Below are positions 11,649 to 23,413 of a DNA stretch of 64,000 nt, piece by piece. The notes beneath the pieces are model-generated. The model was not told the origin of the DNA. It made no database searches and saw nothing but the letters and a program-made list of their open reading frames with translations. The translations under genes were made by a program, and so were the position numbers. Source of the stretch: Phytohabitans maris (lineage in GTDB: Bacteria; Actinomycetota; Actinomycetes; Mycobacteriales; Micromonosporaceae); the NCBI RefSeq assembly GCF_031085175.1, contig NZ_JAVHUY010000002.1, positions 1 through 64,000 on the forward strand. The letters run 5' to 3'. Numbering within the stretch: the first letter of the stretch is position 1; every line of letters starts with the position of its first letter.

Positions 11649-12773
11649 CTAAGTGCAGTTTCCGTTGACCGGTGACCCTGTGCCGGTCCACACGTACGCG
11701 TCGCTGACCCAACTGCCGTCGGTCAGCCTGTTCCATAGATCGGTGGTGTAGCTGTTCCGGCCGGTGTGCCGGGTGCCGCGGGCCGAGCAGGCGATCGTCA
11801 CGGTGTCGCCGTCGGCCAGCTTCCCGACGATCCGGTTGTTGGTGCCGGGCCCGGAGCGGCGGTTGAGCCGGGCGCCGCCGTCGGTGTCGACCACACCCTG
11901 GGTGAGGCCGAGCGCGCCGTAGTTGTACAGGCCGCCGCCGACCGCCACCCGCTTGGAGCCGTGCAGCGCCGCCCCCTCGTACGCCGCGCCGGTGGAGAGG
12001 ATCACCCATTTGCCGAACGCATACCTGTCGATCGCCACGTACGCGCCGTCCCGCCGCAGCGAGAAGTGCACGTGCTTGCCGGTGGAGCGGCCGCCGCAGG
12101 AGACGTCGTTGCCGATGTTGCCGAGGAACGTACCTTCCGCCACCCGCTGACCGTCCACCTTGATGTTGCCTTCGAGGTGGTAGTAGTCGGTGGCGAAGCC
12201 CCGGTCGTGCACCACCCGCACCCAGCCCTTGCCGGACTTGCACATCGTGTACGCCACTCCGGCCCGGGCCGCCAGCACCTTGCCGTCGCCGCCGGCCATG
12301 TCGATCGAGCTGCGCACGCTGCCGTTCATCGGGTGCGGGCCGCCGGTGTACCGCCAGGTCTGCCCGAGCGCGAAGGGGAGGCGCATCCCGGTACGCCGGT
12401 CGTTGGCGGCCTGGGCCGCGCGCCGGTCGAGCTTGGCGGTGCCGAGCGTGCGCCGCTCGTCGCCGCTCAGGATCGAAGCGCTCGCGCCCAGCGTGGCGAA
12501 CTCCGCCTCGCCCTCCAGCGCGACCCGCCACCCGCCGCCCTGCCGCTTGGCGACGAAGAGCCAGCCCTCCGGGTACGCGTGCTCGGCCGCCGGCGCCGGC
12601 CGCACCGCCGTGCCGAAGCCCCACTGGCTGGTGCTCCGGGCCGCGACGCTGACCTGCACACCCTTTCCGAGCCGTGCGACGACCGCCGCCACGAGCCCGT
12701 CGGTAGGCGCCGCTGTTGCCGGTACTGGTACGACTACCAGGGACAACGCCAAAATTGCGATAGGGAGCCGCAT
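11649..12773 (-). CDS. exported M23 metallopeptidase-like protein with SH3-like domain
   Basis: A 374-aa secreted protein. Residues 1-23 form a signal peptide (MRLPIAILALSLVVVPVPATA). The middle holds an M23/LytM-type fold with the H...D ligand region in GPHPMNGSVRSSIDM and the HxH pair in GKHVHFSL. The C-terminus carries an SH3b-like region with NRRSGPGTNNRIVGKL, common in wall-binding modules. It probably acts on or binds peptidoglycan outside the membrane. The ATG at 12773 is chosen because it starts the signal peptide. Confidence 0.82.
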   Translation of the reverse strand: MRLPIAILALSLVVVPVPATAAPTDGLVAAVVARLGKGVQVSVAARSTSQWGFGTAVRPAPAAEHAYPEGWLFVAKRQGGGWRVALEGEAEFATLGASASILSGDERRTLGTAKLDRRAAQAANDRRTGMRLPFALGQTWRYTGGPHPMNGSVRSSIDMAGGDGKVLAARAGVAYTMCKSGKGWVRVVHDRGFATDYYHLEGNIKVDGQRVAEGTFLGNIGNDVSCGGRSTGKHVHFSLRRDGAYVAIDRYAFGKWVILSTGAAYEGAALHGSKRVAVGGGLYNYGALGLTQGVVDTDGGARLNRRSGPGTNNRIVGKLADGDTVTIACSARGTRHTGRNSYTTDLWNRLTDGSWVSDAYVWTGTGSPVNGNCT

Positions 12774-13029
12774 GTTACGATCATGGGCAAAAGGTAAGAT
12801 TTGGTCACGTCGCCGCGCCGTGCCCCGCACCGCGGAGTATCTGCCCCGCTCCCGGCCCGTGTGGGCGGGGAGAGATCGACAGTTGTCGTAGGGGCCCAAC
12901 AACTTTTCCGGACCGCGACTGTCCTTGGCGATGGTGACTCGTTACCCGCGGGAGCCTAACCTGTTAGGTTGAGGGGGCCCTCCGGTTGTGGCTCGAGGTA
13001 GTTCCCTTCTCGATCGAAAGGGAGGCGTA

Positions 13030-14019
13030 GTGGCCTCGGCGCAGCCGACCCCGACGGTGGTCAAGACCTCCGACGGCCGCAGATTGGCCGTTGAGGTTAC
13101 CGGCGCACCACACGGGTTGCCCGTCTTCCTTCTGCACGGCACGCCGGGGAGCCGCAGCGGGCCCAAGCCCCGCGGCATCGTGCTGTACCGGATGGGTGTG
13201 CGGCTGATCTGTTACGACCGTCCCGGATACGGTGGCTCCGACCGCCACGAGGGGCGCAGGGTGGCCGACGTCGCCGGTGACGTGGCGGCGATCGCCGACC
13301 ATCTGGGCTTCGACCGCTTCGCCGTCGTCGGCCGCTCCGGTGGCGGCCCGCACGCCTTGGCCTGCGCCGCGCTGCTGCCCGACCGGGTCACCCGCGCCGC
13401 GGCGATGGTGAGCATCGCGCCGGCCGACGCGTCCGATCTGGACTGGCACCAGGACATGACCAACCTCAATACCGAGGAGTACCGGTCGGTCGACGCCGAC
13501 GGCTCGGCGTATGCGGCCCAGCTCGCCGCGAGAGCCCGCGTCACCCGCAAGAATCCGCGGAGCCTCGTCGAGCACCTGCGCCCCGCGCTCTGCGACATGG
13601 ACCACCGCGTGATCGACGACATCGCGATCCGGCGGCAGCTGACCGCCAGCTACCGGGAGGCGACCCGGCCCGGCCCGGGCGGCTGGATCGACGACGTGAC
13701 CGCGTTCCGCAAGGGGTGGGGCTTCGACCTCTCGACGATCCGGGTGCCGGTCCGCCTCTGGCACGGCGACGCCGACACCTTCTCGCCGGTGCAGCACACC
13801 GAGTGGCTCGCGGCCCGGATCCCCGGCGCCGAGATGCAGGTGCAGCGGGGCGCCGGCCATTTCACCGCGGTCGAGTTCCTCCCGCTCATCCTGGCCTGGC
13901 TCGCCGAGGCCCGACCGGCCACTGTAGACAGCGGTCGGCCAGGCGACGGCTCGACGCCCGAGGCCCCGTCAGAATGGGTGCGGGTCCAGCACCCGGTGCA
14001 CCAGCTTCCCGTCCTGTAG
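13030..14019 (+). CDS. alpha/beta hydrolase
   Basis: A 329-aa alpha/beta hydrolase with oxyanion motif FLLHGTPGS, nucleophile elbow GRSGGG (Ser near residue 100), acid in WHGDADTF and catalytic His in GAGHFTA. The GTG at 13030 is preceded by GGGAGG, a better ribosome site than that of the GTG at 12988. The last 17 codons overlap the 3' end of fxsT on the opposite strand, so the low-complexity tail may be a recent extension. A dyad CTAAC-CT-GTTAG lies upstream at 12957-12968. The substrate is unknown. Confidence 0.82.
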   Translation: MASAQPTPTVVKTSDGRRLAVEVTGAPHGLPVFLLHGTPGSRSGPKPRGIVLYRMGVRLICYDRPGYGGSDRHEGRRVADVAGDVAAIADHLGFDRFAVVGRSGGGPHALACAALLPDRVTRAAAMVSIAPADASDLDWHQDMTNLNTEEYRSVDADGSAYAAQLAARARVTRKNPRSLVEHLRPALCDMDHRVIDDIAIRRQLTASYREATRPGPGGWIDDVTAFRKGWGFDLSTIRVPVRLWHGDADTFSPVQHTEWLAARIPGAEMQVQRGAGHFTAVEFLPLILAWLAEARPATVDSGRPGDGSTPEAPSEWVRVQHPVHQLPVL

Positions 14020-17000
14020 CGTCCGGACTGTCGGGTGGTGGCGCCCGATCGTCTCGATCAGCCGCGCGATCGTCGGCGCCGGAGCGGTGCTGGACGCGGC
14101 CGGTCCACGCCACCCGCCGATGATCCCGACGTGTGACTCGCAGCAGAGCGTGTCCGGATGCTCCACGCCGAGCGCCTTCGCCATCCGCGCGCCGACCTCT
14201 CGCATGCGGCTGTATGCCAGTTCGAGGTCGCCCGCCTCGGCGTGGCAGCTGGCCAGGTTCATCGCGGCCGCCAGCGTGTACGGATGCTCGTTGTCGAGGG
14301 CACGCTCGAACTCGCGGCTGGCCCGCTGGGCGAGGTCGAGCGCGCGCTCCAGGTCGCCCGTGGCGCTGGCCGCGGCGGAGAGGTTCGTGACGCAGACGAG
14401 CGTGTGCGGGTGGTTCTCGCCGAGGTACCTCTCGTACGCGTCGGCCACCTCCTCCATCTCCACCAGGGCCCGGTCGACGTCCCCGATCGCCAGGAGGTTT
14501 GCCGACCGGCTCAGCCGGCAGGCCAGGGTGTCCGGATTGGACGGACCGAAGCGCTGCTGGAACCGGTCGTACGCGTCGTCGAGCAGGGGTGCCGCCGCCG
14601 CCGCGTCGCCGGCGCTGCGCAGGGAGACGGCGAGGTTGGCCTTCGTCCGGAGGGAGTCCGCGGCTTCCGGCCCCAGTACCCGGTGCAGGCTGTCCAGCAC
14701 CTCCCGGAGCAGCTTCACCGAGTTCTCGTACTCCCCGGCCTCGCGCAGGTCGCGGCCGAGACACGAGGCCGACTGGAGCGTGCTCGGGTGGTCGATGCCG
14801 CGCACGATCTGAAACCGTGCGTAGACCTTCTCGTCGCGGCTGCGGGCGTCCCGGAAGTTGCCCACCGCGCGGTACGAGACGGCCAGGTTGTTGGCGGCGA
14901 CCAGCGTCTGCGGGTGCAGCTCGCCGAACTGGTCGACCCAGTCCCGGTAGGCCTTCTCGTCCATGCCCAGCGCCTCGCTGTAGCTGCCGAGGCCGCGCAG
15001 GTCGGCGGCGAGGCCGCGGGCGGTCATGAGCGTGTGCGGATGCTGCGGGCCGAGCAGCTCCCGCTGGGCCTCCAGGACGTCCTCGTTGACCTTCTTGGCC
15101 TCCTCGAAGCGGCCCTGCGAGCGGAGGATGTTGCCGATGTGGAAGCGCAGGAACAGCAGCAGGCGGCGGAGCACGTGGGCCTCGTCCGTGTCCGGCCAGC
15201 GGTCGAGCTGGGCCTGCCACGCCGCCTCCACCTGGCGGCCGAACTTCTCCCCCTCGGCCAGGTCACCGGCCAGCCACAGGTATCGCACGCGGGTGACGAG
15301 CAGCTGCCACATCTTCTCGTCGGTGCTGTCGAGCGCGCGGGATGCCTCGAGGTGGGGCCAGAGCGTCCGGTACCGGGGCCAGGTCGACGGGTTGTCGACC
15401 TCGCCGTCCGGCCGTGACGCGTAGAGCACCCGGTGGCTCTGCCGGCGGGCCTCCTGCAGCTCCTGCTCCGACATCCGCTCCCGGACCACCGCCTGCAGCA
15501 GCCGGTGGACCGCCATCTGCTGGTTGTGCGGGTCGAGCTTGATCAGGGCCAGCCGGTTGGTGCGCTGGATCAGGGCCGCCCGCACCATCGGCTCGGTGAC
15601 CGACGGGTCGAACGGCGCCAGCGCGGCCGCCATCTCGTCGCTGTTGACCAGGTCCAGCGCGATCTCGGGCGCCATCACCGAGCAGAGCTGCAGGAGCCGG
15701 TACGCCGCCTCGGACTGCGACCGCAGCCGGCTCAGCGACAGGTCCCACGTCGCCTCCACCGCCGAACCGCTCGTGGCGTCCGCGGTGCCCGCCAGGGCCC
15801 GCGGGCCGTGCCGCTCGATCTGCCGCAGGTACTCGGCGACCGGTGTGAGCGTCTCCGCGAGCCAGGCACCCGCGGTGGCGATCGCGATCGGCAGGTCGCC
15901 GAGGACCTCGGCCACCTGCTCGGCCTCCGGCCCGGTCATGCCCGCGACCCGCTGGCGGAGGTGCTCGATGCTCTCCGCCCGCCGGAAGACGTCGACCTGG
16001 ATCCCCCGGGCGTGGTTGGTCCAGGCCGGGTTTCGGGAGGTGATGATGATGTGCCCGTTTCCCTCGGGCAGGAACCGCTTGACGTGGTCCAGGTCTTCGG
16101 CGTTGTCGAGGACCACCAGCCAGCGGCCGAACGGCTCGCCCCGACGCAGCGTCTGTAGCGCCCAGCGGGCCTTGTCGGCGGTCTTCGACTCCTCCGGTAC
16201 GCCGAGCCGGTCGGCCAGGTCCGCCAGCGAGGTGTCGATGAACTGGGCCGGCTCGGCCGTGACCCACCACACGATGTCGTACGCGGTGCGGAACCGGTGC
16301 GCGTACTCCAGGGCGAGCTGGGTCTTGCCGACACCACCCATCCCCTGCAACGCGACCGGGAGCGTCGCCGACGTCTGGCGCGGCTGCAGGACCACGGTGG
16401 TGCCGAGCGAGCGCAGGTTTGCCCGCAGCTGCAGCAGCTCCTCTTCCCGGCCGGTGAACATCGCGTTGCGGGTCGGCGCGGAGAAGATCCGCGGCTCGCT
16501 GCCGGGGAAGCGGGCGCCGGCCGGCGAGGACCCCTCGGCCACCGGCCCCTGCCGGCCGAGCAGGCGCAGGATGCGGTCCGCCGCGATCTTTTCAGAGAGG
16601 CCGAAGATGCTGGTGGACGTCTCGGGCGGAAACTCCGGCAGCGGGCGCAGGTCGCTGACGTATATCGCCAACGGCGACGGCGTGCCGGGCTGCTCCCGCG
16701 CCGGTGGGGAGTCGTCCGCCGCGACGAACGCGCCCGACACGATGACCAGCCGGCGCGGCCTCGCCCGCCGGGCCTCCGCCGGGGCGTCGCTGGCCGCACG
16801 GTCGCGGACCCGTACCCCCGCGTCGTGCAGGACCAGCTCGATCCACTCGGCCCAGAGCTGGTCCGCCGGGGCGTGCTCGAGGACGACCTCCTCGTCCAGG
16901 TACTCCGGGATCTTGCGAACGAAGCGCGCCTTCTGCTGGAGGCGCACCGACTCCTCCAGCGGCGGCAACGACCGGATCTCGCCGCCGGTGACGTAGCCGG

Positions 17001-17886
17001 TCAGCGTCTCGAACGCGGCCAGCAGCGAGGTGCGCGACCCGGGCTCGTCGGCGAACGTGGCGAGCGTCTCCTCGTAGGCGTAGTAGGCCTTGTAGGGCAC
17101 CTCGACCGCCGCCCAGTACGCGTCGCGCTCCTCCTCGTTCATGCCGGAGGGGAGGCCGCCGAAGCTCCGCTTGGCGAAGGCACGGCCGGCGTCGACCTTC
17201 TCCTTCTCGGCCGTGTCGACCCGCATGGGCACGGGCAGGATCTGGATCGCGCGCCGGTTGTAGCTGCGGACCCGGCGGGCGACCCGGGCCGCGCCCTCGA
17301 TGCCCTGGTCGCTGAGGGTGAAGCAGTCGACCAGCAGGTCGGGCAGGTGCATCGTGCAGATGTCCGCCACGTCGCTCAACCCGGTGCGGCTGTCGATCAG
17401 CGTGTAGTCGTACTTGCTCTTCATGTGGGCGCGCAGCGCGTCGAGGAACTGCCCGCCGCCCAGCCGGTCGTAGAAGGTGTCCCAGTCCAACCCGCTCAGC
17501 GTGGCCGCGTAGTCGCCGTTTTGCCGGCCGGCGGAGAGGAAGTCGAGCGAGCCGCCGCCGGGGAAGGACCAGCTGACGGTGAACGCGCTGCGGATCCTCG
17601 CGTACTCCTCGTACCACCCGTCGGGGCGTTCCCGGTACTTCGCCGTCTCGTCCTCGTAGGCCCGGATGAGGTCGATGATGCCCTCGGTGCCGTCGACGAC
17701 CTTCTGGTCGAGGAACGGCCGGAAGAACCGGTGCAACCCCGGCGACTCCAGATCCCAGTCCGCGACCAGCACCCGCTTGCCGTTCGCCGCCAGGATCCAG
17801 GCGGTATTGGCGACCGCCATGGTGCGGCCGGTGCCTCCCTTGTAGGAGTAGAACGTGACGATCTGACCCGCACGTGTATCAGTCAT
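13969..17886 (-). CDS. fxsT: FxSxx-COOH system tetratricopeptide repeat protein (MinD-like / NB-ARC / TPR)
   Basis: A 1305-aa cytoplasmic multidomain protein. Residues 10-300 form a MinD/ParA-like domain whose Walker A variant is KGGTGRT at 16-22. About 340-440 is a degenerate TIR-like segment (LWAEWIELVLHDAGVRV). About 470-800 is an NB-ARC/STAND ATPase with P-loop GMGGVGKT at 515-522 and Walker B LVVLDN near 590-595. About 860-1260 is an array of TPR units of the kinesin-light-chain type (repeated HP.TL...NLA). This is the known architecture of the TPR protein of FxSxx-COOH RiPP loci. The role is unknown; signalling or scaffolding is an inference. It starts 48 nt after fxsC. Confidence 0.9.
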   Translation of the reverse strand: MTDTRAGQIVTFYSYKGGTGRTMAVANTAWILAANGKRVLVADWDLESPGLHRFFRPFLDQKVVDGTEGIIDLIRAYEDETAKYRERPDGWYEEYARIRSAFTVSWSFPGGGSLDFLSAGRQNGDYAATLSGLDWDTFYDRLGGGQFLDALRAHMKSKYDYTLIDSRTGLSDVADICTMHLPDLLVDCFTLSDQGIEGAARVARRVRSYNRRAIQILPVPMRVDTAEKEKVDAGRAFAKRSFGGLPSGMNEEERDAYWAAVEVPYKAYYAYEETLATFADEPGSRTSLLAAFETLTGYVTGGEIRSLPPLEESVRLQQKARFVRKIPEYLDEEVVLEHAPADQLWAEWIELVLHDAGVRVRDRAASDAPAEARRARPRRLVIVSGAFVAADDSPPAREQPGTPSPLAIYVSDLRPLPEFPPETSTSIFGLSEKIAADRILRLLGRQGPVAEGSSPAGARFPGSEPRIFSAPTRNAMFTGREEELLQLRANLRSLGTTVVLQPRQTSATLPVALQGMGGVGKTQLALEYAHRFRTAYDIVWWVTAEPAQFIDTSLADLADRLGVPEESKTADKARWALQTLRRGEPFGRWLVVLDNAEDLDHVKRFLPEGNGHIIITSRNPAWTNHARGIQVDVFRRAESIEHLRQRVAGMTGPEAEQVAEVLGDLPIAIATAGAWLAETLTPVAEYLRQIERHGPRALAGTADATSGSAVEATWDLSLSRLRSQSEAAYRLLQLCSVMAPEIALDLVNSDEMAAALAPFDPSVTEPMVRAALIQRTNRLALIKLDPHNQQMAVHRLLQAVVRERMSEQELQEARRQSHRVLYASRPDGEVDNPSTWPRYRTLWPHLEASRALDSTDEKMWQLLVTRVRYLWLAGDLAEGEKFGRQVEAAWQAQLDRWPDTDEAHVLRRLLLFLRFHIGNILRSQGRFEEAKKVNEDVLEAQRELLGPQHPHTLMTARGLAADLRGLGSYSEALGMDEKAYRDWVDQFGELHPQTLVAANNLAVSYRAVGNFRDARSRDEKVYARFQIVRGIDHPSTLQSASCLGRDLREAGEYENSVKLLREVLDSLHRVLGPEAADSLRTKANLAVSLRSAGDAAAAAPLLDDAYDRFQQRFGPSNPDTLACRLSRSANLLAIGDVDRALVEMEEVADAYERYLGENHPHTLVCVTNLSAAASATGDLERALDLAQRASREFERALDNEHPYTLAAAMNLASCHAEAGDLELAYSRMREVGARMAKALGVEHPDTLCCESHVGIIGGWRGPAASSTAPAPTIARLIETIGRHHPTVRTLQDGKLVHRVLDPHPF

Positions 17887-17892
17887 CGATTT

Positions 17893-17933
17893 TTCCTTGG
17901 CTTGCGGAAGGTCTCTTCCTTGGCTTGCGGAAG
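17893..17933. repeat. 18-bp tandem duplication in the fxsC-fxsT junction
   Basis: TTCCTTGGCTTGCGGAAG occurs at 17893-17910 and again at 17916-17933, with a 23-nt period. On the coding strand each unit ends in CAAGGAA, so the duplication copies the fxsT ribosome-binding site and places one spare site between the fxsC stop and the real one. Confidence 0.85.
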
Positions 17934-17934
17934 C

Positions 17935-19104
17935 TCAGGGTGTCGGATCGGTCAGCCTCGCCCGCTCGGTCGGTTTCCCGTCCGACGGAAACACGGGCGC
18001 GTTCTTCAGGTACTGGCGGCGCGCCTTGGCGACGAGGCTCGGCATGATGCGCACGAACTCGCTCACCTGCCCCACCCGCTCCGGTCGCCGCGCGTCGGCC
18101 GCGAAAAGGATAGCGGCCGCTTCGTCGGCGAGCCCTTCGCCGCGCGCCGTGTGCTGCGCGTCGTCCTCGTTGACGACGATGAGCGGGACGACCCAGTCGG
18201 GCAGGTCCTGCGCCACGGTGCGCAGCGCCTGGGCACCGCCCGAGCCGGCGATCACCCACGGATCGATGAGCAGCACCGCTGGGCGGCCGGCCACCGGCCC
18301 GCCCGCCTCGGTGAAGCTGACGATCCGGGTCGGCAGTCCGAGCCGCTCGGCGGTGCTCGCCGCGTCTTCCGCGATGGGCAGCGCCTGCCGGGTGCTGAAC
18401 GGGCGCCACTGCGCGCTCGTCTCGCCGTAGCTGTCGCCGGTGCGGTCGGGGGGCAGGTCGGCCTTGGTCGGGGCCAGGACGGTCACCTCGAAGGCGACTT
18501 CCCGCTCGACCGGGAGGCGGTCGTCGTGCGGGTCGGGCGCCAGCGAGGGCGCGAGCGGGTGCCGCTCGGCCAGGTCGACGATCCGGCCGGCCAGCCGCTC
18601 CAGGACCACCTGGTACGGGCCGTCGTAGTAGCTCAGCATGCGCAGGGCACGCATGCCGTTCTCGGCGTACTCCGGGATGCCGGTCCCCAGCTCGCGGGCC
18701 CGCTCGACCTCCACTTTGGTCTCCCAGGAGGGGAACGGCACCCAGAGCACCGGGATGACCCGGTCGGACGGCGAGCCGGCGGCGGCCGTCCGGGTGCGGA
18801 ACGACTCCTGCTCGCGCATGGACCACGAGTTGCCGAAGTAGCCGGGCGAGTAGAGCGGCACGAAGACCTGGGCCGCACCGAGCGCGGCGGCGAGCGCGGC
18901 CCGCGAGTCGGAGCCGGGCGGCACCTCCAGGTCCAGGAATCCGATCTCGACACCCGGCTGCTGGCGGGCTCGCTGCCGCACCTCCTGCGACAGATCCCGG
19001 AAGAACTCCCGGACCCACGTGTCGGTGTCGGTCCGCGCGTTGTCCGTGGGCGGCGCCGCGCGCGCGTAGCTGAGGAAGAAGTACGTGCCCTTCGTCGGGC
19101 TCAT
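17935..19104 (-). CDS. fxsC: TIR-like protein FxsC
   Basis: A 389-aa protein. Residues 1-190 are a TIR-like domain starting YFFLSYARA, with VFVPLYSPGYF and SWSMREQESF, where a Glu sits in the usual TIR catalytic position. Residues 210-370 match the C-terminal domain specific to FxsC proteins, with a Rossmann-like core (AVLLIDPWVIAG, VVPLIVVNEDD). The ATG overlaps the stop of the upstream TIR gene by four bases. The family is known only from FxSxx-COOH loci, and its function is unproven. Confidence 0.9.
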   Translation of the reverse strand: MSPTKGTYFFLSYARAAPPTDNARTDTDTWVREFFRDLSQEVRQRARQQPGVEIGFLDLEVPPGSDSRAALAAALGAAQVFVPLYSPGYFGNSWSMREQESFRTRTAAAGSPSDRVIPVLWVPFPSWETKVEVERARELGTGIPEYAENGMRALRMLSYYDGPYQVVLERLAGRIVDLAERHPLAPSLAPDPHDDRLPVEREVAFEVTVLAPTKADLPPDRTGDSYGETSAQWRPFSTRQALPIAEDAASTAERLGLPTRIVSFTEAGGPVAGRPAVLLIDPWVIAGSGGAQALRTVAQDLPDWVVPLIVVNEDDAQHTARGEGLADEAAAILFAADARRPERVGQVSEFVRIMPSLVAKARRQYLKNAPVFPSDGKPTERARLTDPTP

Positions 19105-19742
19105 GTCACCTCCTCGTCAAAGACGTTGCGCAGCTCTTCGGGGCCGGACGGAATCTGCGCGGTCACCCAGTGGGAGCGGAAGATCCCGACCACATGCTGC
19201 GCGAGCCACCAGACGACTGCCCGGTACTCCCGGTCGAGGCCGAGCTTGAGCAGGCCGTAGAGCCCCGCCTGCTCGTACAGCGCGGGAAGCTTCGGGTCGG
19301 GAAGCCGGCCGGGCGAAAACCACTGGATCTTTTGCACGACGGCGGGCAGGTCGACGAGCTCGGTCGGCGACCACCGCACGGGGACGATCCCGGTCGCGTT
19401 GTCGGCGCGGCGGTCCTGCCGCCGCACCCGCTTGCGGCGGGCGAAGGCGTCCCACTCCATGCCGCACCACGAGCTGCGCACCAGCGAGGCGGAGATGAGC
19501 GGCACGAAGACCTGGCAGGTGCCGGTGGCCCGGAGCAGCTCCGGGGACCAGTGCTCGCCACCGCTCATGACGCTGTCCATGAACCCCGGGTCGGCCCCCA
19601 CCGACCTGCCGACGAGCTCGTTGACGTCGGTCGACAGGTCTTCGAAGAAGCGGTTTACCTCGCCGCGGGTGGCGTTGACATGCGCGTAGCTGAGGAAGAA
19701 CAGCGGCATTCCCGGCTCGAGCTCGAACTCGTCGCCGTTCAC
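19101..19742 (-). CDS. additional TIR-like protein of the Fxs locus
   Basis: A 213-aa TIR-like protein, related to the N-terminal domain of FxsC (LFFLSYAHVN, CQVFVPLISASLV, SSWCGMEWDAF). The SWCGME motif puts a Glu at the TIR NADase position. The GTG start at 19742 has AGGGAG ten bases upstream. A longer frame to 19862 would run into fxsB and lacks a ribosome site. The stop overlaps the fxsC start (ATGA), so the two TIR proteins are co-translated and might associate. Its C-terminal half has a helical region with no recognised family. Confidence 0.82.
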   Translation of the reverse strand: MNGDEFELEPGMPLFFLSYAHVNATRGEVNRFFEDLSTDVNELVGRSVGADPGFMDSVMSGGEHWSPELLRATGTCQVFVPLISASLVRSSWCGMEWDAFARRKRVRRQDRRADNATGIVPVRWSPTELVDLPAVVQKIQWFSPGRLPDPKLPALYEQAGLYGLLKLGLDREYRAVVWWLAQHVVGIFRSHWVTAQIPSGPEELRNVFDEEVT

Positions 19743-19815
19743 TGTGACGCTCTCCCTGCCGACCGGGCGTGTCGCGTTCCACCATCGTAGGTACTCCCTA
19801 CAAGCATCGTGCAGG

Positions 19816-22092
19816 TCACCAGGACTCCGCGTACTCGCGCATCCGGCCGACGAAGCGCTCACCCTCGGCGGTCAGCGCGCCGGTGTCGACAAGGGAGTCG
19901 AGCGCCGACCGGACCCAGCCCTGGTAGCGGCGGAAGTGGGCGCCGCCTTCGTCGCGGGACCGCCAGATGTCGGCGACGGCCAGGTGCGCGTACGTGCCCT
20001 GGAGCGCCGCTTCGAGCGGTCGCGGATCGTCGCGCCAGCCGACCTCCAGCTGGAGCCCCGCGGCCGGGTCGACCAGGTCGCAGAGGTCGAGCACCGCGCC
20101 GAGCTTGAGGTGCTGGACCTCGTGGACCAGCAGGACGGCCAGGGCGTCGCCGTCCGGCACGCCGGCCACGCCCACCGCGCCGAACGCGTGCCGGCTCGTC
20201 GCGCTGCGCTGGAGCCCGGTGCCGTCCGGACGCAGCGGCGTCAGCGCCCGCAACGCCACCCGCAGCCCGGGAACGTGCCCAGGCGCGTACTTCCTGACGC
20301 TGTGCCAGGCGCCGTCCCGCAGGCGCCGCCACGACTCGACCGCCGCGGGGTCCAGCCGGGCGGCGACGGGCTCGTCGTAGCAGTCCCGGTACGGGTCGAC
20401 GTCTTCGAGCTCGACCGTCAGGCCGTCGCCGTCGAGGCGCCGTACCGGCTGCCAGCCGGGCGCCACCGCCGCACCGTCCACCGTGGATACCGTGTGGACG
20501 GTGCCGCCGGCCCGCACCTCGAAGCCGCCGGGCGTGGTCGTGAGGGCGACGGTCGGCCCGGCGTCCGGGCTCAGGAGCAGCCGGCCGAACGTCGGCAGGT
20601 GCAGCATCCCGTCCCGCACCGGGACCGCCACCTCCAGCGGCTCGCCGGCCCACACGGCGGCCGCGGCCGCGAGGCTGGCGAGGTACCCCACGTCGGCCTC
20701 GCCCCGCAGGCACCGCACCGCCCAGGCCCGGACGTACGGATGGGCGAACACCCGGGCCACGGCCGCGGGCCGCTCGGCGTCGAGCCGCCCGAGCAGCTGC
20801 CACCCCTCGACGGCGACCGGTGCCTCGGTGGCGGAGCCCAGCGCCGCCACCAGCGCCCGGGTGATGGAGACCTGCGCGGCCGCCAGATACTCCATCGTGG
20901 ACACGTCGCCGTACCCGGAGCCCAGCTCGTCCAGGACGGTCGCGGGCACCGAACCGTTCGCATGTGGGGGTGTGCTGTCCATGCGGGCGATGAACTCCTT
21001 GAGATCTGCGCAGTAGACGGAGGGGTTGTCGTACCCACTGCCGGACCTGTACCGGTGCGCGAAGAGCCCGCCACCGCACCGGTGCACCACCTGGCAGTTG
21101 CGGCAGGTATCGCTGACCCCTCCGATCCCGAGCTGGCGGACCGCGATGCCCGGGTGGCGGGCCGCCTCGTCGACCGCGTGCCGAAACACGTCGAGCCCGG
21201 TCGCGGCGGCACCGTCGAACGCGGTCTTCAGCGAGTCGGCCTGCTCCCACGACCCGTCGGTCTCGATGACGGCGACGTCGGCGGGGTCGAGGCCGACCGC
21301 CTCGGTGAAGCTCGGCCCGCCGACCGCCGTCGACAGCAACGAGTCGAAGAGGCGGATCGGCACCGGCCGCCCGTCGTGGACCCAGCGGTCGTAGACCCGG
21401 CCGAGCCAGGTCGCGTACGGCGTCGGGTCGGTGCCGGGGCGCGGCGGCGGGTTGTCCCACGTGCCGTGCGGCAGCAGCAGGTCGATCCGGGGCGGCTCCT
21501 CGGCGAGCAGCGCCTCGTACACCCGGATGGGGTCGGCCTCGACGTCGATCGTGCAGAGGATCCCCGCGTAGATCTGCCGGTGCCGGCGCAGCAGCGCGAG
21601 GGCGCGCAGGGTCTGCGGATGGCTGCTCGCACCGCTGGCGAAGCGGCGGTGCCGGTCGTTGGCCGCCCGGTCGCCGTCGAGCGAGATGCCCACCCCGACC
21701 CGGAACTCCGCGAGGACCTCGCAGAACGCCGGCGACAGCAGCACGCCGTTGGACTGCATGTGCAGCCGCAGGTCGGTGACGGGATCGATCGCGGCCCGGA
21801 GCGTCGCGAGCACCTCGCGCAGCCGGCCGGCGCCGAGCAGCAGCGGCTCGCCGCCGTGCAGTACGACGTGGACCTGGCTCAACCGGTGGGTTGCCGCGTG
21901 CTCGGCGATCCGCCGCGCGGACGCTCGCACGGTGCGTGGCGCCATCGCGTGTGGACGCTTGCGCCAGCCACGGTCGGCGTGCTGGTAGACATAGCAGTGA
22001 TCGCAAGCAAGATCACAGCGGCTGTGCACCTTGAGTACGTAGTTGGTCAAGGCCGGGGGCCGCAACGGCTGGCCGGCGCCCACCATCGACAC
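19816..22092 (-). CDS. fxsB: radical SAM/SPASM cyclophane-forming maturase FxsB with HExxH extension
   Basis: A 758-aa enzyme. The radical SAM cluster ligands are Cys26, Cys30 and Cys33 (CDLACDHC), with GGEP at about 80-83 as the SAM-binding motif. SPASM cysteines follow at about 330, 333, 339 and 361. Residues 400-758 form the HEXXH-type extension, with intact HEVQH at 657-661. FxsB enzymes crosslink aromatic residues to neighbouring side chains in the FxsA core, making cyclophanes. In the named family the extension is described as inactivated, so the complete motif is unusual. The GTG at 22092 is 8 nt after fxsA, indicating coupling. Confidence 0.93.
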   Translation of the reverse strand: MSMVGAGQPLRPPALTNYVLKVHSRCDLACDHCYVYQHADRGWRKRPHAMAPRTVRASARRIAEHAATHRLSQVHVVLHGGEPLLLGAGRLREVLATLRAAIDPVTDLRLHMQSNGVLLSPAFCEVLAEFRVGVGISLDGDRAANDRHRRFASGASSHPQTLRALALLRRHRQIYAGILCTIDVEADPIRVYEALLAEEPPRIDLLLPHGTWDNPPPRPGTDPTPYATWLGRVYDRWVHDGRPVPIRLFDSLLSTAVGGPSFTEAVGLDPADVAVIETDGSWEQADSLKTAFDGAAATGLDVFRHAVDEAARHPGIAVRQLGIGGVSDTCRNCQVVHRCGGGLFAHRYRSGSGYDNPSVYCADLKEFIARMDSTPPHANGSVPATVLDELGSGYGDVSTMEYLAAAQVSITRALVAALGSATEAPVAVEGWQLLGRLDAERPAAVARVFAHPYVRAWAVRCLRGEADVGYLASLAAAAAVWAGEPLEVAVPVRDGMLHLPTFGRLLLSPDAGPTVALTTTPGGFEVRAGGTVHTVSTVDGAAVAPGWQPVRRLDGDGLTVELEDVDPYRDCYDEPVAARLDPAAVESWRRLRDGAWHSVRKYAPGHVPGLRVALRALTPLRPDGTGLQRSATSRHAFGAVGVAGVPDGDALAVLLVHEVQHLKLGAVLDLCDLVDPAAGLQLEVGWRDDPRPLEAALQGTYAHLAVADIWRSRDEGGAHFRRYQGWVRSALDSLVDTGALTAEGERFVGRMREYAESW

Positions 22093-22100
22093 GATGGGGG

Positions 22101-22310
22101 TCAGATACCGGATTGGAAGCGCGTCGGCTCGCTGTCGTCGACGAGTCTGCGGCAGACGGCCGCCATCAGCTTCGGGTGCTCACTGGCGATCTGGGTCAAC
22201 GGCGTCTGGCTGAGGTGTGCCAGCCGGGTGGGATCGAGGCCTGGTGGACCGAACCCTTGTGGGCGCGAGTCAACACGGTTCACGACGGTTCCCCTTAGTT
22301 CAAGCAGCAT
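22101..22310 (-). CDS. fxsA: FxSxx-COOH RiPP precursor FxsA
   Basis: A 69-aa precursor ending F-Q-S-G-I, the exact F-x-S-x-x-COOH signature that defines FxsA. The preceding region (RLAHLSQTPLTQI then RRLVDDSEPTRFQSGI) matches the usual leader pattern of these short proteins. The Phe of the FxS motif is the expected crosslink site for FxsB. The ATG at 22310 has AGGGGG four bases upstream. A GTG at 22283 (60 aa) with AAGGGG seven bases upstream is an equally credible start. It is first in the operon, so it should be the most abundant product. Confidence 0.88.
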   Translation of the reverse strand: MLLELRGTVVNRVDSRPQGFGPPGLDPTRLAHLSQTPLTQIASEHPKLMAAVCRRLVDDSEPTRFQSGI

Positions 22311-22334
22311 CGATCCCCCTGGTCAGGATAGGCA

Positions 22335-22355
22335 ATACTAGCCGTGATGTCACGG
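22335..22355 (-). promoter_or_regulatory. candidate fxs promoter with overlapping dyad
   Basis: Reading toward fxsA, TAGTAT (complement of 22335-22340) is a fair -10 element about 25 nt before the ATG. Directly upstream lies the dyad CCGTGA-TG-TCACGG (22342-22355), placed where a repressor would block the spacer. No good -35 hexamer was found, which would fit activator-dependent or tightly controlled expression. Confidence 0.4.
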
Positions 22356-22488
22356 TTGCAGGTCGGTCAGCTTCGGTAGCGATCGATGCCCGCGACGGGG
22401 AAAGACCGGAGAAATTCCGCCGGAACAGCGGCTTGCGAGGAAGGATTGGGGTCCGGGCTCCGGGGCGTCCCGCGCCGCTCCCCCGCCC

Positions 22489-22542
22489 GTGATCAAAGCT
22501 CTTCTCAAGTCGTTCTAGCGACTTGGCGGGAGCTTTGATCAC
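22489..22542. repeat. R1 hairpin repeat, copy c
   Basis: A 54-nt copy between the folD stop and the fxsA promoter. The seventh pair is A-T instead of G-C, with both sides changed. The left arm has CTCTTCTC, which pairs with GGCGGGAG mainly through G-U wobbles on the plus strand. It is probably the folD transcript end. Confidence 0.85.
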
Positions 22543-22552
22543 GCTGAGCTGG

Positions 22553-23413
22553 CTAGCCGCGCTCGGCCCGTTCGACCACATTGGTCAGGAGCATCGCCCT
22601 GGTCATCGGGCCGATGCCGCCGGGCACCGGGGCCAGCGCGCCGGCCACCTCGGCCACCTCCGGGGCGACGTCGCCGGTGTAGACACCCTTGCCGTCCGGT
22701 CCGACGACGCGGGTGATGCCCACGTCGACCACGACCGCGCCAGGGCGGACCATATCGGCCGTGACCAGGCCCGGCACGCCGGCCGCGGCGATCACGACGC
22801 CGGCGGAGCGGGTGTGCGCGGCCAGGTCGCGGGTGCCGGTGTGACAGAGGGTGACGGTCGCGTTTTCGCTACGCCGGGTGAGCAGCAGCCCGAGCGGGCG
22901 CCCCACCGTCGTGCCACGGCCGACCACGGTCACCTCGGCGCCGCGCAGCTCCACCCCGTACCGCCGCAGGAGCGCCACGATCCCCCGCGGCGTGCAGGGC
23001 AGCGGTGCCTCGTACCCGAGCACGAGCCGGCCCAGGTTGACCGGGTGCAGCCCGTCGGCGTCCTTGTCCGGGTCGATCAGCTCCAGCACCCGCTGGGTGT
23101 CGATCTGCGGCGGCAGCGGCAGCTGAACGATGTAGCCGTGGCAGGCGGGGTCGGCGTTGAGCTCGGCGACCACGGCCTCGACCTGCTCCTGCGTGGCGTC
23201 GGCGGGCAGCTCGCGCTGGATCGAGGCGATGCCCACCTCGGCGCTGTCGCGGTGCTTGCCCCGCACGTACGCGTGTGACCCCGGGTCGTCGCCCACGAGG
23301 ACGGTGCCCAGCCCCGGAACTATGCCCCTTTCGGCAAGAGCCTTGACCCGCGCCCGCAGTTCGTCCTTGATTGCGGACGCCGTTGCCTTACCGTCCAGGA
23401 GTGTCGCGGTCAC
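22553..23413 (-). CDS. folD: bifunctional methylene-THF dehydrogenase / methenyl-THF cyclohydrolase
   Basis: A 286-aa FolD of one-carbon metabolism, interconverting methylene-, methenyl- and formyl-tetrahydrofolate. It shows the catalytic region [11 protein letters not shown] with the essential Lys, the folate motif [10 protein letters not shown], the Rossmann motif [11 protein letters not shown] and the C-terminal [15 protein letters not shown]. The start is the GTG at 23413. Formyl-THF made here feeds purN and purH nearby. The gene is divergent from the binding protein that begins at 23460, so the two promoters share 46 nt. Confidence 0.95.

Follow-up and report, generated by a model that had tools for sequence, protein, structure and literature searches.

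The 64,000-nucleotide stretch of Phytohabitans maris DNA analysed here (the window; assembly GCF_031085175.1, contig NZ_JAVHUY010000002.1, positions 1 to 64,000) carries a locus whose identity as a standalone FxSxx-COOH system, present as an accessory unit, is near certain. The locus comprises a probable precursor peptide (FxsA), a fused modification enzyme (FxsB), two TIR-like proteins (FxsC) and a multidomain STAND protein, with an alpha/beta hydrolase gene converging on them. In the following, loci carry L numbers, comparison genomes G numbers and contigs C numbers. The features are:

22101..22310, minus strand: probable FxsA precursor peptide, 69 aa, C-terminus EPTR-F-Q-S-G-I
19816..22092, minus strand: FxsB, radical SAM/SPASM fused to a predicted alpha-ketoglutarate-HExxH-type domain, 758 aa, TIGR04269
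20980..22050, minus strand: radical SAM/SPASM part of FxsB, from profile matches
19819..20943, minus strand: HExxH part of FxsB, TIGR04267, with HEVQH at 20110-20124
19101..19862, minus strand: open reading frame (ORF) of the short FxsC, TIR-like only (domain 19188-19706), NF040588, WCGMEW motif
17935..19104, minus strand: long FxsC, TIR-like plus FxsC C-terminal domain, NF040588, TIGR04276
13969..17886, minus strand: STAND protein with MinD-like (KGGTGRT), putative TIR-like, NB-ARC and TPR parts, 1305 aa, NF040586, NF047398
16561..16890, minus strand: putative degenerate TIR-like domain of the STAND protein, residues ~333-442, TIR_2, below cut-off
13030..14019, plus strand: alpha/beta hydrolase, convergent with the STAND gene, conserved sixth locus member
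12821..22558, no strand: segment missing in four same-genus genomes, edges approximate

The first-pass annotation of this DNA had described five same-strand genes, and all five frames do lie on the minus strand in tight order, with 8 bp between fxsA and fxsB, a four-base overlap of the two FxsC frames and 48 bp between the long FxsC and STAND genes; the true start of the short FxsC is probably inside ORF 19101..19862. Its assignment to the FxSxx-COOH class also holds, as FxsB, both FxsC and the STAND protein exceed curated cut-offs and the FxsA C-terminus, F-Q-S-G-I, meets the F-x-S-x-x pattern. FxsB reaches 556 bits against TIGR04269 (cut-off 370), the FxsC N-terminal model NF040588 gives 151.2 bits for the short and 152.5 bits for the long protein (cut-off 130), the C-terminal model TIGR04276 gives 88.8 bits in the long FxsC (cut-off 55), and the STAND protein reaches 937 bits against NF040586, FxSxx_TPR (cut-off 300). 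Failed profile searches for fxsA and fxsB had been named as grounds against the assignment: the models for FxsB, FxsC and FxSxx_TPR pass, whereas fxsA falls short (14.4 bits against 28). Because the TIGR04268 cut-off is not reached, the 69-aa peptide is called a probable FxsA and the system is classified from the other four genes. By pattern search, a small frame with an aromatic-x-S-x-x C-terminus precedes fxsB in 136 of the 146 other distinct fused-FxsB loci, and this conserved C-terminal core is short and similar across genera.

The five-gene set is not a chance grouping, since fused FxsB, FxsC and a MinD-STAND gene are found together in 41 of 45 named related loci. The exceptions are L037 and L046, with FxsB alone, and L036 and L047, with only a shorter FxsB frame in the stretch examined. 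FxSxx-COOH systems occur in many actinobacteria, with an FxsB match in 79 of 394 genomes of the class (E up to 1e-60).

The claim that the locus is an accessory insertion is supported by comparison of the interval between mdh and folD, for which both genes were searched in 60 relatives, 41 of them with an mdh match. In these 41, the two genes are 55-3446 bp apart in 28 genomes and on separate contigs in nine, with 17 kb in G406 and 0.9-2.9 Mb in three; most of the distant cases have only a second folD type, 42-50% identical. Within the genus, the window has a gap of 10.96 kb where G395-G398 have 1424, 1279, 181 and 1259 bp, and mdh and folD lie on separate contigs in the fifth genome, G394. 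BLAST homology with the four empty sites ends on the left at 12,820 (G397: 11,694; G398: 12,670, with a short piece to 12,820) and resumes on the right at 22,552-22,575, and the fused FxsB genes of the same genus are located elsewhere. The segment is thus missing in four same-genus genomes. The unit is not directly adjacent to mdh, as an M23 peptidase gene (11649-12902, minus strand) and the hydrolase gene intervene. The peptidase gene, which adjoins mdh, is probably older than the insertion, because three of the four same-genus genomes have its DNA at the empty site. Insertion of a mobile element with recognizable hallmarks was considered and rejected, with no tRNA, no Rfam match at gathering thresholds and no clear G+C shift; one quick comparison of the insertion edges found no shared stretch longer than 8 bp.

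FxsB is a fusion of two enzymes with predicted activities, a radical SAM/SPASM enzyme and an HExxH domain of the alpha-ketoglutarate beta-hydroxylase family. The FxsB family is associated with a three-residue cyclophane crosslink. The radical SAM part of the window protein contains CxxxCxxC and matches PDB 9gm3 (ChlB) at E 1.1e-80. The C-terminal half scores 137.7 bits against TIGR04267, the alpha-ketoglutarate-HExxH beta-hydroxylase domain (cut-off 40), and matches PDB 22nu at E 3.5e-64. The PDB entries near the HExxH domain (22nu and 22ob) and near the hydrolase (9wlv) carry generic names only. Compared at positions that 95% or more of 44 other intact relatives conserve, the window agrees at 50 of 50 in the HExxH domain, including H657, E658, H661 and H703, and at 114 of 120 in the radical SAM part.

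Two other interpretations of the HExxH domain were rejected. The inactivated hydroxylase extension FxsBH (NF040587) has the extension in common with the window protein, which differs by retaining HEVQH and all conserved positions of the domain and scores below the cut-off (197.1 bits against 225). A leader peptidase does not agree with the present filing of the family by NCBIfam as alpha-ketoglutarate hydroxylases; the HExxH part was read as a precursor-cleaving metallopeptidase in the accessible text of Kaur 2020 (PMC7159879). The same genome has two further FxsB genes above cut-off (contigs C78 = L053 and C45 = L054), together with three further FxSxx_TPR genes and one further FxsC gene above theirs. 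At L054, a separate HExxH protein comes after a short FxsB, and the opposite strand carries one FxsC together with a MinD-STAND gene.

The state of the HExxH motif is accompanied by differences in the residues before the core phenylalanine of FxsA. The fused FxsB set of 160, minus four divergent rows (L108, L109, L110 and L112) and nine duplicates, comprised 147 proteins, with HExxH intact in 116 and lost in 31, and an FxsA was found for 137. With HExxH intact, 93 of 110 FxsA have valine at position -3 to the core Phe, versus 2 of 27 with HExxH lost; the corresponding counts are 88/110 versus 4/27 for alanine at -2 and 2/110 versus 13/27 for threonine at -1. On the radical SAM tree, the HExxH state requires seven changes, five of these forced by starred branches. 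An independent-pair test on the starred branches gives five pairs, in which the motif follows in two to four and goes the opposite way in none; as it is not significant, the link between V(-3) and HExxH could partly reflect shared ancestry. Exceptions with intact HExxH are also found in the genus, namely A-T-P-F in L128 and F-S-P-F in L129 and L130, while the fourth same-genus case, L131, has V-A-A-F. The hydroxylation target may differ in the window lineage.

The FxsC pair scores 35.9 and 29.3 bits against Pfam TIR_2 (cut-off 28). A model of the long FxsC (mean predicted local distance difference test score, pLDDT, of 85.5) has plant TIR proteins as its top structure matches, with SPARTA and AbTir further down; the likeness is modest, as 4 of 710 matches reach E up to 0.001, all of them plant TIR, with a target-normalised template modelling score (TM-score) of at most 0.45. 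In a profile alignment, W-C-x-x-E of the short FxsC coincides with the TIR domain of flax L6/L7, and the glutamate at this position is catalytic in TIR enzymes that hydrolyse NAD+ (NADases). All 29 short FxsC from named loci retain this glutamate. Long FxsC (n = 40, from 39 named loci and the window) have E in 30 cases and Q in the other 10; every locus with Q also has a short FxsC with E. E is likewise kept in all ten loci scored as having a single FxsC, one of which, L027, actually has a second. The glutamate therefore becomes glutamine only where a second FxsC retains it. From these alignments, FxsC proteins appear TIR-like with a glutamate at the catalytic position, making them putative NADases.

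These proteins might instead aid peptide maturation, with the STAND protein regulating the biosynthetic genes and neither FxsC acting as an effector. In 41 of 45 named loci, FxsC does form part of the biosynthetic operon, and a TIR domain can serve purely for interaction, as it does in animal adaptors. However, at least one FxsC per named locus examined keeps the catalytic-position glutamate, which a scaffold would not need, and no FxsC match was found in the 11 short-FxsB loci L113-L123 (stretches of ~13 kb), so that a role in maturation is considered quite unlikely.

In the STAND protein, NB-ARC and TPR regions are matched and the NB-ARC P-loop GMGGVGKT is intact. Its MinD-like part scores 138 bits against NF047398, KGGVGR ATPase (cut-off 90). 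A MinD-like N-terminal domain is present in 35 of 35 aligned STAND proteins, and its Walker lysine is arginine in every one. Between the MinD-like and NB-ARC parts sits a TIR-like domain, with TIR_2 detected in 19 of 21 STAND linkers at E up to 0.5 (best 9.9e-20). No glutamate-bearing segment was found in this domain of the window protein. When the TIR-like domain was used by itself for a profile search of the PDB, the top hit was not a TIR protein (E 0.042), and two chains related to Toll receptors appeared at E 0.12-0.13. As Foldseek, run with the MinD/TIR-like model, listed P-loop ATPases (MinD/ParA, nitrogenase Fe protein and others) among the best 50 of 1302 matches, the assignment rests on sequence and secondary-structure order, parts of the model having pLDDT <50. 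The protein thus appears to carry a MinD-like domain and a decayed, presumably non-catalytic TIR-like domain. The presence of separate enzyme-like TIRs beside a decayed TIR in the receptor suggests recruitment by TIR-TIR contact.

The constant MinD-like domain also agrees with developmental or cell-cycle signalling, in which the modified peptide and the STAND/MinD protein would regulate differentiation or division instead of immunity. The named hosts include Micromonospora, Streptomyces and Actinoplanes, all of them filamentous. Nevertheless, the patchy presence of FxsB and the differing sites of the fused form within one genus fit poorly with a core role, and the arginine in place of the Walker lysine also speaks against it; this explanation is therefore judged unlikely.

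The alpha/beta hydrolase is a conserved sixth gene of the locus. In the window, its last 51 bp are shared with the end of the STAND gene; of 73 related loci counted, 65 have it behind the STAND gene in convergent orientation, at a median of 48 bp to the match edge. The 73 loci were drawn from L008-L054 and L084-L136 and qualified by a MinD-STAND gene together with a hydrolase match or, failing that, 1 kb or more of sequence behind the STAND gene; L045 was omitted for lack of room, each locus contributed a single STAND gene, and the set retains near-duplicates as well as the overlapping loci L106 and L107. In three loci the gene is placed otherwise, 1650 bp off in L049 and at the opposite end in L096 and L097. 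In 60 other genomes, 20 homologues were found at E up to 1e-50; each of the ten best (E at most 1.9e-97) has an FxsB match 7.7-9.0 kb away, which in G398 consists of two partial matches below cut-off, and of the remaining ten, that of G399 lies 9.4 kb from one and nine are not near FxsB. A putative Ser-Asp-His triad is present in the aligned hydrolases (S in 59, D in 58 and H in 58 of 59). The best Pfam model is Abhydrolase_1 (77.5 bits, cut-off 25.8), with Hydrolase_4, the S33 serine aminopeptidase model, also passing (36.2 bits, cut-off 27), so that the protein may be a peptidase or an esterase; PDB 9wlv is matched at E 1e-51. The same-genus locus L217 (G398 contig C1, ~6,506,000-6,516,000) has two partial FxsB matches below cut-off and a close hydrolase homologue 8.8 kb off; it is possibly a decaying copy of the unit.

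A further gene, encoding an AAC(3)-like acyltransferase, is found in 39 of 88 loci searched (the query's own counted), mostly directly behind fxsB; the window lacks it. Examples lie at L088:5153-5929 and L032:11165-12112; two such proteins checked are below every NCBIfam AAC(3) cut-off, and the gene possibly encodes a third tailoring step. The first-pass annotation had presented the five genes as a complete operon, a description that no longer stands, as the convergent hydrolase belongs to the unit and some related loci add the AAC(3)-like gene; its gene list had lacked the hydrolase gene at 13030-14019 (plus strand), the HExxH domain of FxsB and the TIR-like domain of the STAND protein. Its statement that no transporter or protease is present is correct for transporters, none of which lies between the insertion edges, and is not secure for proteases, given the zincin-like HExxH domain and a hydrolase that passes the S33 model.

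These genes bear on whether the mature peptide could be a toxin or an exported antibiotic, with the other genes controlling it or protecting the cell. A peptide toxin or signal was the suggestion in the accessible text of Kaur 2020 (PMC7159879), and the AAC(3)-like acyltransferase of those 39 loci could tailor the product or protect the cell. Against this stand the missing transporter and a C-terminal core that is short and similar across genera, leaving it a doubtful explanation with a small chance. An exported antibiotic cluster as such was rejected, the unit having no transporter.

The standalone FxSxx-COOH system was described computationally in Kaur 2020, whose accessible text (PMC7159879) already contains the signalling/conflict reading as a prediction. 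The window locus agrees with that description in the radical SAM/SPASM FxsB, the FxSxx peptide, the AP-ATPase/TPR protein with an inactive MinD-like domain and the actinobacterial host; the likeness of FxsC is by NCBIfam. In the same accessible text, the phrase 'similar AP-ATPase' may imply the STAND TIR domain, the decay of which is undiscussed, and alpha/beta hydrolases are given with caspases in other subsystems and are unmentioned for the FxSxx-COOH system. The FxSxx-COOH system is not mentioned in the accessible text of PMC8195603, and in that of PMC12734244 an 'FxSxx-COOH system tetratricopeptide repeat protein' is merely named in a fungal gene table. The hydrolase linkage, the link between HExxH and the motif and the FxsC glutamate pattern were not found in the literature searched, and no priority is claimed.

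Two further comparisons are informative. ChlB/ChlH has the same two-domain fusion of radical SAM and alpha-ketoglutarate-HExxH enzymes, and the radical SAM part of FxsB matches the ChlB structure. ChlH hydroxylates Asp and His according to the accessible text of PMC12636437, whereas the last nine residues of the window peptide, EPTRFQSGI, contain neither, and STAND and TIR genes accompany the fusion in the window. TIR-NB-ARC receptors and TIR NADases resemble the system in how it might work, through the TIR likeness and W-C-x-x-E of FxsC and the NB-ARC and TPR parts of the receptor; they differ in that the enzyme-like TIRs of the window are separate proteins and the TIR-like domain of its receptor appears to lack the catalytic segment.

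A mechanism can be proposed in which a STAND receptor senses a modified peptide inside the cell and deploys TIR effectors, an outline to which even chances of being right or wrong are given. The radical SAM part of FxsB would crosslink the C-terminal F-Q-S of ribosomally made FxsA into a three-residue cyclophane, and the HExxH part would then beta-hydroxylate the peptide. The alpha/beta hydrolase would free or trim the modified core, or work on another pathway product. Staying intracellular, the modified peptide would act on the NB-ARC/TPR STAND protein, either as its ligand or as an amplifying signal, and the activated STAND protein would recruit FxsC via its own non-catalytic TIR-like domain. 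FxsC, working as a TIR enzyme, might then turn over NAD+ or a similar nucleotide, leading to growth arrest or cell death. Catalysis, recognition and outcome are inferred at every step. The fully specified version is a STAND-class immune receptor for which a doubly modified peptide of the cell's own making (cyclophane and beta-hydroxyl), released by the hydrolase, serves as activating ligand or as lock, with separate TIR enzymes deployed via a dead TIR-like adaptor domain; it is put forward tentatively, as a somewhat improbable whole.

Several observations weigh against this mechanism. At the level of the peptide, FxsA scores 14.4 bits against TIGR04268 (E 0.034), below the curated cut-off of 28, and the upstream search by aromatic-x-S C-terminal pattern, which misses other core shapes, found none in 10 of 147 loci. 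V at -3 is wanting in 17 of 110 intact loci, including the window, whose P-T-R-F departs from the V-x-x-F common in HExxH-intact relatives, and is present in 2 of 27 lost loci; the pair test is not significant (sign test p 0.125-0.5, 5 pairs). The window STAND linker matches TIR_2 at E 0.039, below the Pfam cut-off, and the MinD-like domain is equally compatible with a developmental role. The hydrolase is missing from five MinD-STAND loci (L008, L011, L012, L051 and L054), and its unlinked homologue in G406 (E 6.4e-70) is closer than the linked one of G399 (E 1.7e-68, partial match). The AAC(3)-like gene shows no clear link to the HExxH state (27/53 intact, 16/23 lost). In PADLOC, neither FxsA nor either FxsC has a family match, while the candidate family PDC-M28B matches the MinD-like part and viperin weakly matches the radical SAM part. 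Finally, experiments on any FxSxx system were not found in the literature search, outside which most subscription papers fall, and to our knowledge no product, ligand or NADase activity is known for these systems.

The comparison adds a sixth conserved gene and testable mechanism predictions to a system known from computation. It raises the questions of whether the HExxH target lies within the V-A-A stretch directly before the crosslinked Phe, whether the FxsC glutamate is catalytic and necessarily kept by one FxsC, and whether the conserved hydrolase performs the processing formerly ascribed to the HExxH domain. If the reading of a receptor with a peptide ligand is true, the chemistry of ribosomally synthesised and post-translationally modified peptides (RiPPs) would supply ligands for bacterial STAND receptors.

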